Below are positions 32,378 to 60,347 of a stretch of DNA of 64,000 nt, piece after piece. The DNA lies in NCBI RefSeq assembly GCF_035994945.1, contig NZ_CP108677.1, positions 1,178,001 through 1,242,000 of the forward strand, written 5' to 3'. The DNA comes from Streptomyces sp. NBC_01216. Its GTDB lineage: Bacteria > Actinomycetota > Actinomycetes > Streptomycetales > Streptomycetaceae. The notes under the pieces are model-generated. The model saw only the letters and a program-made list of their open reading frames with translations. It had not been told where the DNA came from and did no database searches. Position 1 is the stretch's first letter, and each line of letters opens with the position of its first letter. The position numbers were made by a program, and so were the translations under genes.

Positions 32378-33712
32378 TCAGTCGTTCCTTTCGAGGAGGC
32401 GGCCGGAGGGCTCTGCGAGGGTGCCGTCGACGGCGACGCGCGCGCCGCGCAGCCAGGTCGAGCGCACCACTCCGTGCAGGGTCCGGCCGGCGTAGGCGGT
32501 GACCCGGTTGCGGTGTTCCAGCTCGGCGGGGTCCACGGTGAAGGTCGCGTCGGGGTCGACGACGGCGAAGTCCGCGTCCCGGCCGGCCTCGATCGCGCCC
32601 TTGCGGTCCAGCCCGGCGAGCCGGGCCGGGCCTTCGGACATCCAGCGGGCGACGTCCTCCAGGCCGTGGCCGCGGCGGCGGGCCTCGGTCCAGATGGCGG
32701 GCAGGCCGAGCTGGAGGGAGGAGATCCCGCCCCAGGCGGACGCGAAGTCGGACGTCTTGAGGTCGGCCGTGGAGGGCGAGTGGTCGGAGACGACGCAGTC
32801 GATCGTGCCGTCGGCCAGGCCCTGCCACAGGGCGTCCTGGTTGGCCGCCTCGCGGATCGGCGGGCAGCACTTGAACTCGGTGGCGCCGTCGGGGACCTCC
32901 TCGGCCGTGAGGGTGAGGAAGTGGGGGCAGGACTCGACGGTGACGGAGAGCCCCTCGGCCTTGGCGGCGGCGATCATCGGCAGCGCGTCCGACGAGGACA
33001 GGTGCAGGACGTGGACCCGGGCGTCGAGGCGGCGGGCCTGGTCGATGAGGTTGCCGATGGCGGTGTTCTCGGCGCCCCGGGGCCGGGAAGCGAGGAAGTC
33101 GGAGTACCGGCCGCCGCTCTTCTGCGGGGCGGCGGCCAGGTGGTGCGGGTCCTCGGCGTGCACGATCATCAGCCCGCCGAAGCCGGCGATCTCGGCGAGG
33201 GAGTTCGCCAGCCGCTCCTGGTCGAGTTCGGGGAACTCCTCCACGCCGGACGGCGACAGGAAGCACTTGAAGCCGAAGACCCCGGCGTCGTGGAGGGGGC
33301 GCAGGTCCTTCACGTTGTCGGGCAGCGCGCCGCCCCAGAAGCCGACGTCGATGTGGACCTTGGACCGGGCGACCTCCTGCTTGGTCCGCAGGTGCTCGAC
33401 GGTGGTGGTCGGGGGGAGGGAGTTGAGCGGCATGTCGAGGAGGGTCGTGATGCCGCCGGCCGCGGCGGCGCGGGTGGCGGTCCAGAAGCCCTCCCACTCG
33501 GTGCGGCCGGGGTCGTTCACGTGCACGTGCGTGTCGACGAGCCCGGGGAGCACGACGTCGTCGCCGACGTCCTCGAGCCGGGTGCCGGCCGGCACCTCGG
33601 CGTCGTGCGGCAGCACCGCGGCGATGGTTCCGCCGGAGACGGCGATCGACGCGGGGCGTGCCCCCTCGGGGGTGATGACGCGTGTCGAGCGCAGTACCAG
33701 GTTGACGTCCAC
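32378..33712 (-). CDS. allB: Allantoinase
   Basis: 444 residues (E. coli AllB has 453). Dinuclear metal site: H62 and H64 ([11 protein letters not shown]), carboxylated K149 (FGFKCFL), H185 (VHAED), H237 (VLHLSS), D310 (SDHSPS). It opens allantoin to allantoate in the cytoplasm. The GTG at 33712 is chosen because the conserved N-terminus starts [12 protein letters not shown] and an AAGGGG lies upstream; the longer reading from 33733 is less likely. It is divergent from the IclR regulator gene; regulatory boxes of two kinds lie between them. Confidence 0.95.
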
Positions 33713-33744
33713 CCGTACCCCTTCTTCTTCCACCCAGCAGAAAA

Positions 33745-33761: not shown

Positions 33762-33848
33762 GGAGTCTTCACTCAGGACGACATGCCGTCAAGGGCACAC
33801 TCCCAGGATGGCCCGACCCCGGCCGGACGCGACCGGACTCCTTGGATG

Positions 33849-33886
33849 TTTCCATGAAGTGGAATATATTTTTCGTAAGGTAGAAC
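33849..33886. promoter_or_regulatory. Paired AllR-type boxes in the allB-allR divergent region
   Basis: Box 1 is TTTCCA-TGAAG-TGGAAT (33849-33865) and box 2 TTTTCG-TAAGG-TAGAAC (33870-33886), 21 bp apart. Between them is an AT-rich AATATATTTTT that contains a TATATT -10-like hexamer for allB (minus strand). The same 21-bp pairing occurs at gcl, hyi and malate synthase. Confidence 0.7.
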
Positions 33887-34047: not shown

Positions 34048-34857
34048 GTGCCGACGTCCAGCGCCAGCGCCACCGACTCCGCCAAGCCCGCTGCCGCGAG
34101 CGGCGGCGTCCAGTCCCTTGAGCGTGCCTTCGATCTCCTGGAGCGGATGGCCGACGCCGGCGGCGAGGTCGGACTGAGCGAGCTCTCCGCCAGCAGCGGG
34201 CTGCCGCTGCCCACCATCCACCGGCTGATGCGGACCCTGGTGGCCTGCGGCTACGTGCGCCAGCAGCCCAACCGCAGGTACGCGCTGGGCCCCCGGCTCA
34301 TCCGGCTCGGGGAGTCCGCCTCCCGGCTGCTCGGGACCTGGGCCCGCCCCTACCTGGCGCGGCTCGTCGAGGAGACGGGCGAGACCGCGAACATGGCGTT
34401 GCTCGACGGCGACGAGATCGTCTACGTCGCCCAGGTGCCGTCCAAGCATTCGATGCGCATGTTCACCGAGGTCGGGCGGCGCGTGCTGCCCCACTCGACG
34501 GGCGTGGGCAAGGCGCTGCTCGCGCACACCCCGGCGGACGAGGTCCGCGCGCTGCTGGCCCGCACGGGCATGCCGGCCGCGACGGACAAGACGATCACCA
34601 CGCCGGAGGGATTCCTGGACGCGCTGGCCGTCGTACGCGACGCCGGGTACGCGGTCGACGACAACGAGCAGGAGATCGGGGTCCGGTGCCTCGCGGTGTC
34701 GGTGCCCGATTCCCCGACGGCGGCGGCGATCTCCATCTCCGGGCCGGCGGGCCGGGTGACGGAGGCGGCGACGGAGAAGATCGTCCCCCTCCTCCTGGAG
34801 GTCGCGCGGGAACTGTCGACGGCGCTCGCGAACCCCGCGGGCAACGGCCAGGTCTGA
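34048..34857 (+). CDS. allR: IclR-family repressor of allantoin/glyoxylate genes
   Basis: 269 residues. The IclR winged helix is at ~22-85 (VGLSELSASSGLPLPTIHRL is the HTH), then a GAF-like effector domain with LGTWARPYLARLVEETGETA, VGRRVLPHSTGVGKALLAH and EIGVRCLAVSVPDSPTAAA. Known biology: the orthologous AllR of Streptomyces coelicolor represses allantoin and glyoxylate genes and is released by pathway intermediates. Position (divergent from allB) and the paired boxes at four promoters in this window fit that role. A ~20-residue Ser/Ala-rich N-terminus is atypical but common in Streptomyces. Confidence 0.92.
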   Translation: MPTSSASATDSAKPAAASGGVQSLERAFDLLERMADAGGEVGLSELSASSGLPLPTIHRLMRTLVACGYVRQQPNRRYALGPRLIRLGESASRLLGTWARPYLARLVEETGETANMALLDGDEIVYVAQVPSKHSMRMFTEVGRRVLPHSTGVGKALLAHTPADEVRALLARTGMPAATDKTITTPEGFLDALAVVRDAGYAVDDNEQEIGVRCLAVSVPDSPTAAAISISGPAGRVTEAATEKIVPLLLEVARELSTALANPAGNGQV

Positions 34858-40221: not shown

Positions 40222-40269
40222 AAGGGGTGGCACTCAGCGCCACGGTCTGTCGATCCGGAGAATCTCGAC

Positions 40270-40286
40270 ATCAACAAACCATTGAA
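40270..40286. promoter_or_regulatory. TTCAAC-type palindrome (ATCAAC-AAACC-ATTGAA) at the aceB promoter
   Basis: Imperfect member of the 17-bp motif family. Its right half ATTGAA overlaps the proposed -35 hexamer TTGAAC (40282-40287), the same register as at the catalase and OHCU promoters. Confidence 0.65.
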
Positions 40287-40310
40287 CTTCCACTATGAGG
40301 AAACTACTAT
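40282..40310 (+). promoter_or_regulatory. Predicted malate synthase promoter
   Basis: TTGAAC (40282-40287), 17-bp spacer, TACTAT (40305-40310). Start codon 139 nt downstream. Both regulatory motifs overlap it. Confidence 0.6.
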
Positions 40311-40324
40311 CCACTGTTCAGAAG
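40287..40324. promoter_or_regulatory. Paired AllR-type boxes at the aceB promoter
   Basis: Box 1 CTTCCA-CTATG-AGGAAA (40287-40303) fills the promoter spacer; box 2 TATCCA-CTGTT-CAGAAG (40308-40324) overlaps the -10. Centres are 21 bp apart, as at gcl, hyi and allB. Confidence 0.68.
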
Positions 40325-40448: not shown

Positions 40449-42080
<1,632 letters not shown>

Positions 42081-53841: not shown

Positions 53842-53871
53842 TTGACAAGCGAGCCGCTCGACTTGCAGCAT
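53842..53871 (+). promoter_or_regulatory. Predicted hyi promoter
   Basis: TTGACA (53842-53847), 18-bp spacer, CAGCAT (53866-53871). The first AllR-type box begins at 53870, overlapping the end of the -10, so an occupied box would block initiation. Confidence 0.55.
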
Positions 53872-53907
53872 TCCGTCAGACAGAAACTTACTTCCGCGAT
53901 ACGGAAG
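53870..53907. promoter_or_regulatory. Paired AllR-type boxes upstream of hyi
   Basis: Box 1 ATTCCG-TCAGA-CAGAAA (53870-53886) and box 2 CTTCCG-CGATA-CGGAAG (53891-53907, a perfect palindrome), 21 bp apart. Box 2 ends 14 nt before the start codon and overlaps the ribosome site. Confidence 0.75.
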
Positions 53908-53921
53908 GAGCGCCGCCCCTC

Positions 53922-54755
53922 ATGGGATACACGGACCAGCGCTTCGATGTGAACCTGTCGATCCTCTTCACGGAACTCCCGCTCCTGGAGCGCCCCGCGG
54001 CCGCCGCCGCGGCGGGCTTCACCGCGGTCGAGCTGTGGTGGCCCTGGATCGACACCGCCACCCCTGACCAGAGTGAGCTCGACGCTCTCAAGCAGGCCCT
54101 GGACACCGCCGGCACCCGGCTGGTGGGCCTCAACTTCTACGCCGGACAGCTGCCCGGCCCGGACCGCGGCGCGCTCTCCGTGCCCGGCGAGGAGTCGGAC
54201 CGCTTCCGCGCCAACATCGAGGTGGCGGCCGACTTCGCCGCCTCGGTCGGCTGCACGGCACTCAACGCGCTGTACGGCAACCGCGTGGAAGGCGTCGACC
54301 CACGGCTCCAGGACGCCCTCGCCCTGGAGAACCTGGTCCTGGCCGCCCGCGCGGCCGACCGGATCGGCGCGATCCTGCTGGTCGAGACCCTCAACAAGCC
54401 GGAGTCGCCGCTCTATCCGCTGGTGAGCGCCCCCTCGGCGATCGAGGTCGTCGACAAGGTCAACGCGGCCACCGGGCTCGGCAACGCCAAGTTCCTCCTC
54501 GACATCTACCACCTGTCGATGAACGGCGAGGACGTCGCCGAGGTCATCGCGCGGTACGCCGACAAGACCGGTCACGTCCAGATCGCGGACAACCCGGGCC
54601 GTGGCACGCCGGGCACCGGGGCCCTCCCGCTGGAGCGGCTCCTCGACGAGCTCAGAAAGGCCGGCTACGACGGCTGGGTCGGCCTGGAGTACAAGGCCGC
54701 CGACGCCGCCTCGTCCTTCGAGTGGCTTCCGGCCGAGGCACGCGCGGCCCTCTGA
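53922..54755 (+). CDS. hyi: Hydroxypyruvate isomerase
   Basis: 277 residues (E. coli Hyi 258). TIM-barrel AP-endonuclease-2-like fold. Metal ligands are in LLVETLNKPESPLYPL (first Glu), FLLDIYHLSMNGED (Asp, His), HVQIADNPGRGTPGTG (His) and WVGLEYK (last Glu). Interconverts hydroxypyruvate and tartronate semialdehyde. GGAAGGAG before the ATG is part of an AllR-type box. The tartronate semialdehyde reductase gene follows 41 nt later in the same operon. Confidence 0.94.
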   Translation: MGYTDQRFDVNLSILFTELPLLERPAAAAAAGFTAVELWWPWIDTATPDQSELDALKQALDTAGTRLVGLNFYAGQLPGPDRGALSVPGEESDRFRANIEVAADFAASVGCTALNALYGNRVEGVDPRLQDALALENLVLAARAADRIGAILLVETLNKPESPLYPLVSAPSAIEVVDKVNAATGLGNAKFLLDIYHLSMNGEDVAEVIARYADKTGHVQIADNPGRGTPGTGALPLERLLDELRKAGYDGWVGLEYKAADAASSFEWLPAEARAAL

Positions 54756-58432: not shown

Positions 58433-60220
<1,788 letters not shown>

Positions 60221-60278: not shown

Positions 60279-60316
60279 ATTCCGTATTGCGGAAGTAATG
60301 TTCTGCTATGTGGAAG
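60279..60316. promoter_or_regulatory. Paired AllR-type boxes upstream of gcl
   Basis: Box 1 ATTCCG-TATTG-CGGAAG (60279-60295) and box 2 GTTCTG-CTATG-TGGAAG (60300-60316), 21 bp apart, just downstream of the predicted -10. Confidence 0.74.
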
Positions 60317-60317
60317 C

Positions 60318-60347
60318 AATGTAGGTCGGGGTGGTGAGAACCGTCAA
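60318..60347 (-). promoter_or_regulatory. Predicted gcl promoter
   Basis: Minus strand TTGACG (60347-60342), 18-bp spacer, TACATT (60323-60318). The boxes begin 2 bp downstream, where bound repressor would block initiation. Same geometry as hyi. Confidence 0.62.

Follow-up and report, generated by a model that had tools for sequence, protein, structure and literature searches.

How can one repressor be placed over several catabolic promoters, and why should its binding boxes come in pairs that are imperfect near the very point where transcription is expected to start? This question is raised by the window analysed here, a stretch of 64,000 nucleotides from Streptomyces sp. NBC_01216, in which four promoters of allantoin and glyoxylate genes each carry two similar palindromic boxes.

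Paired boxes at the allantoin and glyoxylate genes

The genes next to the boxes, with their best family matches, are:

32378..33733, minus strand: allB, allantoinase (TIGR03178, 629 bits)
34048..34857, plus strand: allR, IclR-family regulator with HTH_IclR (PF09339) and IclR_C (PF01614)
40449..42080, plus strand: aceB, malate synthase A (TIGR01344, 830.6 bits)
53922..54755, plus strand: hyi, hydroxypyruvate isomerase (TIGR03234, 302.9 bits, under the cut-off of 353.45)
58433..60220, minus strand: gcl, glyoxylate carboligase (TIGR01504, 1139.1 bits)

Hydroxypyruvate isomerase is the top match of the hyi reading frame in NCBIfam and Pfam, though its score stays under the curated cut-off. The same stretch also encodes allantoicase, uricase, hydroxyisourate hydrolase, an amidohydrolase, 2-hydroxy-3-oxopropionate reductase and catalase. 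As expected for a Streptomyces AllR regulon, genes of allantoin and glyoxylate breakdown (allB, aceB, hyi and gcl by NCBIfam, hyi below its cut-off) are thus found together with an IclR-family protein, the allR product, in which both PF09339 and PF01614 were detected. We take this regulator, which is up to 96% identical to its nearest named relatives, to be the orthologue of Streptomyces coelicolor AllR, going by gene context and by the background on that system.

The original prediction placed two boxes at gcl, hyi, allB-allR and aceB, with start positions differing by exactly 21 bp. All four differences are indeed 21 bp. We describe the box as a 15-bp pattern, TTCY-N7-RGAA; two boxes and a 6-bp linker form an element of 36 bp with 16 specified positions. 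Box starts are 33850/33871 (allB-allR), 40288/40309 (aceB), 53871/53892 (hyi) and 60280/60301 (gcl), each one higher than predicted because the predicted motif begins with n. That motif, with 10 specified positions, is exact in five of the eight boxes, whereas those at 33871, 40288 and 40309 deviate from it by one mismatch each; palindromes with TTC/GAA-type half-sites are thus found at all eight places with at most one mismatch. The boxes of the four putative operators are:

33850..33864, plus strand: allB-allR, clean box TTCCATGAAGTGGAA, from the genome scan and found upstream of allR in relatives
33871..33885, plus strand: allB-allR, imperfect box TTTCGTAAGGTAGAA, directly 3' of the predicted allR -10
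40288..40302, plus strand: aceB, upstream box TTCCACTATGAGGAA, within the -35/-10 spacer
40309..40323, plus strand: aceB, imperfect box ATCCACTGTTCAGAA
53871..53885, plus strand: hyi, imperfect box TTCCGTCAGACAGAA, beginning where the predicted -10 ends
53892..53906, plus strand: hyi, clean box TTCCGCGATACGGAA
60280..60294, minus strand: gcl, clean box, sense TTCCGCAATACGGAA
60301..60315, minus strand: gcl, imperfect box, sense TTCCACATAGCAGAA, with 2 nt between it and the preceding predicted -10

The last hyi half-site (GGAA) overlaps the likely ribosome-binding site GGAAGGAG at 53903-53910, so that the same bases serve two purposes. A single exact box lies at the start of allB (33728-33742); exact boxes more than 270 bp upstream of allR also occur in 11 of 79 relatives' loci (12 boxes), at places that are not all identical.

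Searching the whole genome (7,718,607 bases) for the 21-bp pair with at most two mismatches gave six places, and the reversed pattern, used as control under the same limit, gave no match. The four named pairs have 0 or 1 mismatch and the other two places two mismatches each, which makes the pairs at allB-allR, aceB, hyi and gcl the only ones with at most one mismatch in 7.7 Mb. As predicted, the pair marks allantoin and glyoxylate genes near an IclR-type regulator. If up to 2 of 10 mismatches are allowed, the boxes of the window form four pairs at 21 bp and no more than two at any other distance up to 60 bp. Chance as the origin of the 21-bp pairs is ruled out by this genome scan, by the spacing count in the window and by the counts in 150 genomes given below. 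Judged from sequence, each 36-bp element is very probably one putative operator, lying over a promoter, for two dimers of the neighbouring IclR-type repressor.

Predicted promoters and the imperfect half-site

Promoters were predicted for gcl, hyi, aceB and allR, not for allB, and transcription starts were likewise predicted from sequence:

33842..33870, plus strand: predicted allR promoter TTGGAT-N17-TATATT, its -10 forming the linker between the boxes
40282..40310, plus strand: predicted aceB promoter TTGAAC-N17-TACTAT, its -10 spanning linker and second box
53842..53871, plus strand: predicted hyi promoter TTGACA-N18-CAGCAT, with a weak -10
60318..60347, minus strand: predicted gcl promoter TTGACG-N18-TACATT, from sequence and relatives

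Each promoter class was aligned on the box after the -10, and distinct sequences were counted. At gcl, the predicted -10 (TANNNT) begins 8 bp before the imperfect box in 23 of 24 distinct sequences, and at aceB it begins 4 bp before it in 38/38, with the -35 at -6 relative to the upstream box and a spacer of 17 in 37/38. The hyi -10 begins 5 bp before the imperfect box in 21 of 25 distinct sequences as NANNNT only, TANNNT being found there in 0/25, and its -35 TTGACA lies at -29 in 20/25. For allR, 73 rows were used (87 minus the 14 without AGAA in the last half-site): the -10 begins 5 bp before the imperfect box in 41, TANNNT lies at -6 to -4 in 45, and 28 have no TANNNT at the expected place. 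Since only 45/73 rows show TANNNT, the allR prediction is weaker than those for gcl and aceB and the least certain of the four. Two layouts result. The claim that the pair lies directly downstream of the -10 applies to gcl and hyi, where the partner box follows 21 bp downstream of the imperfect one, but not to aceB and allR, where the -10 sits in or across the 6-bp linker and the partner box lies 21 bp upstream, within the -35/-10 spacer.

How would such an arrangement work? Two dimers, presumably joined as a tetramer, would bind on one side of the helix with two turns between them, one over the box just downstream of the -10, at the expected transcription start, and the other on the partner box, usually the cleaner one, either downstream (gcl, hyi) or upstream over the spacer (aceB, allR). 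Jointly bound, they would block RNA polymerase, presumably by steric hindrance, until a pathway metabolite releases them. A half-site of slightly reduced strength, AGAA, with more than one weak site at aceB, might hold binding below its maximum and thereby keep the genes inducible.

With half-sites numbered H1 to H4 along the direction of transcription, AGAA is found within the box that follows the predicted -10 in 152 of 174 distinct operators. At gcl H2, AGAA occurs in 23/24 distinct sequences, AAAA in one and GGAA never; at hyi H2, AGAA occurs in 24/25. The aceB operators have AGAA at H4 in 32/38 distinct sequences and never GGAA, and their H3 is never TTCC, while allR H4 reads AGAA in 73/87. 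A direct search for 21-bp pairs with four perfect half-sites (TTCCR and YGGAA) found none in 150 genus genomes, the same genomes yielding 273 pairs once C/T and A/G were both allowed. A single operator of the 174, the hyi pair of locus L216, has four TTCC/GGAA half-sites; its next base deviates, which places it outside the full-motif search. No allR sequence (0/87) combines a perfect H2 with a perfect H4, where about nine would be expected from the margins, a difference that is not independent evidence because many allR rows are close kin. The weak half-site of the original prediction is thus real and conserved, but its place goes with the -10 and cannot be described just as the ‘second’ box. 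Outside the genus, weak half-sites sit elsewhere in the operators, and the rule is therefore one of this genus.

At gcl, many linker and core positions are far less informative than the A of AGAA, which therefore looks selected and not merely inherited. But, what would it be selected for? Our proposal, which we put forward as tentative, is that the operators are imperfect by design: the AGAA site at the -10 end would cover the start, a cleaner clamp would lie 21 bp to either side, a perfect operator with four half-sites would be selected against as too tight, and the number of second-best half-sites (one at gcl and hyi, two or more at aceB) would set the order in which the genes are switched on. 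AGAA could also be kept for early transcription, through promoter escape or start-site sequence, and not for repressor affinity. This reading, which we regard as rather unlikely, gains from the place of AGAA, a few bases past the predicted start in all four promoter classes, and from its A being present in 24/24 distinct gcl and 24/25 hyi sequences. On the other hand, AGAA fits the RGAA pattern and so may be simply a weaker repressor half-site, and 13 of the 87 allR sequences have GGAA at H4, all without GGAA at H2, which shows that the weak half-site is able to move to the other box.

Spacing of the boxes in relatives

Is the pair itself the conserved unit? We scanned 150 genomes of the genus for exact pairs, allowing every gap from 0 up to 28 bp. 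At a gap of 6 bp, that is 21-bp spacing, the forward counts add up to 273, against 11 over the 28 other gaps, the latter number following from 11 genomes that show one extra pair in the full scan. The number of genomes with an exact pair is 126/150 in this full scan and again 126 when only the 6-bp gap is allowed. As a control, the reversed pattern matched 3 times on the forward strand in the former scan and once in the latter. The enrichment of 21 bp over other spacings in Streptomyces genomes, which had been proposed as a check, is therefore present. In a set of 80 named loci (1.54 Mb, two of the 80 records under another genus name), the 21-bp spacing accounts for 141 pairs, and none of the other distances between 9 and 80 bp for more than 4. 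With the exception of L105, which is too short, all of these loci include 300 bp or more of sequence upstream of allR; in 77 of these 79, the 21-bp pair is found there, with one mismatch per box at most. When all spacings between 15 and 60 bp are scored, the top pair likewise sits at 21 bp in 77/79. The box profile used for this came from the four promoter classes and was made from single boxes, so that it contained no spacing of its own, but partly from the same sequences and at loci chosen by their 21-bp pair.

With at most two mismatches, the pair is carried by 23/23 gcl loci kept of 24 found (L178 was dropped at the filters) and by 26/26 hyi loci kept; the higher totals of 28/28 and 36/36 are biased, as they also count the window and loci that had been retrieved with the pair pattern. 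Under the same limit, 73 of 82 aceB upstream regions have the pair and 9 fail, and 108 of 125 allR upstream regions have it and 17 fail, the latter set being partly biased. The sequences compared are related, and their counts are not independent. Further members were sought in ten more genomes with at most one mismatch: 40 places were found (reversed control 2), and those that were assigned, by coordinates or by sequence similarity, fall into the four promoter types already described. Single matches outside these types are G020:C6, G015 at 1.16 Mb, G102 at 4.77 Mb and G076:C5.

Other spacings recurred at two mismatches: 24 bp, counted 20 times at gcl and 17 times at hyi, and, at aceB, 40 bp with 43 counts and 43 bp with 25. 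The 24-bp pairs were rejected as a second spacing, being the first box read 3 bp off frame with two mismatches, and the 40-43-bp pairs as an alternative one, being due to a weak third match upstream of the first aceB box. This box-like match (40245-40265 in the window) has mostly 2 of 8 mismatches and lies 40-43 bp before the first box in many loci; it could represent a third site of lower strength, or else a chance match within a conserved stretch. That stretch, GAGAATCTCGACATCAACAAACC (40258-40280), directly precedes the aceB -35, hardly varies among the 40 aceB loci compared (of 73) and occurs once in the genome at up to three mismatches. It may be the site of a second regulator.

At E up to 1e-60, 147/150 genomes of the genus have a close AllR relative, each of them a single one, and genomes without AllR are for that reason unusable as a negative control. 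The three concerned (G049, G072 and G129) are assemblies of 780 to 1770 contigs; G049 and G129 still have one exact pair each. An exact pair is absent from 24/150 genomes, of which 23 have AllR, and the allR upstream region was read in 20 of these (G137, G144 and G149 were left out). Ten of the 20 have a 21-bp pair with at most three mismatches, L124 among the loci having a better-matching 22-bp pair elsewhere. Profile scoring, which covered 12 of the 20, placed the best score of L117, L123 and L126 at 21 bp and above all 200 letter shuffles, with a low score for L123. A credible 21-bp pair was not found in 7/20, one with AllR at 87% identity and six (L121, L122, L132, L133, L134 and L136) with strongly diverged AllR at 77-82%; the best 21-bp pair of L136 lies inside coding sequence. 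The operator may have changed in genus genomes with such diverged regulators. For gcl, 7 of 31 genus genomes searched gave no gene.

Across the class, AllR relatives (E up to 1e-60) were found in 80 of 246 genomes, 21 of the 80 belonging to the same genus, source included. Among 29 allR upstream regions from outside the genus (20 fetched plus L158-L166), a 21-bp pair is present in 15 and absent from 14 when up to 3 of 16 mismatches are allowed. Over spacings of 12 to 45 bp, 16 pairs lie at 21 bp, the next commonest distances being 14 and 24 bp with four each. Upstream of allR, seven closely similar loci of one non-genus family (L238-L241, L243, L246 and L249) share another 21-bp pair that is well conserved; its linker and second box are spanned by TAGT-AT or TAGT-GT, at the position of the aceB -10 in Streptomyces.

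The comparison of relatives gives good support to the earlier view that the pair, and not the single box, is the operator: the pair is the conserved unit and its spacing is rigid. Two independent AllR dimers without contact would leave the 21 bp as a relic of promoter origin or a product of promoter geometry, which we consider improbable. A single box is already a full palindrome, and the aceB pair is conserved enough that ancestry alone could preserve its spacing. However, the spacing stays constant at four different promoters while linker bases and box cores vary, the pair recurs at the 15 of 29 upstream regions outside the genus, and independent sites should tolerate 20 or 22 bp. That a different IclR-family regulator binds here is very improbable, for although Streptomyces genomes hold several IclR-family proteins, one pair sits in the promoter region of the AllR gene itself, and the close AllR relative occurs once in each of the 147 genomes. 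Two contacting dimers of the neighbouring AllR thus remain our preferred reading. Four promoters in two layouts with one fixed weak half-site become directly comparable here. The genus offers a natural data set on the placement of a repressor pair at promoters, an old question, whether drift or selection has made natural operators weak, becomes testable with a handful of constructs, and a simple genome pattern flags the likely AllR regulon.

Comparison with known systems

In S. coelicolor, AllR reportedly binds its operators and is released by a pathway metabolite. The AllR study of Navone et al. 2015 (AEM 81:6649) concerns, by its title, control of the allantoin pathway genes. The window holds the same gene types as that regulon, and the 21-bp pair may already have been described in the 2015 paper. 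An IclR-family repressor is mentioned second-hand in PMC12772271.

For the IclR family as a whole, Suvorova and Gelfand 2021 (PMC8222616) give tandem sites for 94 groups, with 18-22 nt between centres, mainly 19-21, attributed to tetramers facing one side of the DNA. The window agrees in its palindromic boxes, which resemble those of group 1, and in its tandem spacing, 21 bp in all four operators; the pair is therefore a case of a kind already described there. As far as it is accessible, that text treats neither Streptomyces AllR nor the position of the -10 within the pair nor the conserved weak half-site, and the weak half-site with its place after the -10 was not found in the open-access literature.

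Among individual regulators, the window's protein was rejected as E. coli-type AllR (NF007548, 127.5 bits against a cut-off of 406) and as BhcR (NF045644, 202.8 bits against 350), though BhcR is its top NCBIfam match. According to PMC8222616, Escherichia coli AllR belongs to the same protein family and also regulates allantoin use, whereas its motif KTTGGAAWAWTWTTCCAAC has the half-sites in opposite order, GGAA before TTCC. GenR of Corynebacterium glutamicum, as given there, shares the TTCC-N7-GGAA core in its motif ATTCC-N7(5)-GGAAT but regulates 3-hydroxybenzoate and gentisate use (PMC8222616). Measured against these systems, the spacing is ordinary for the IclR family, and the fresh detail lies in where the imperfect box is placed.
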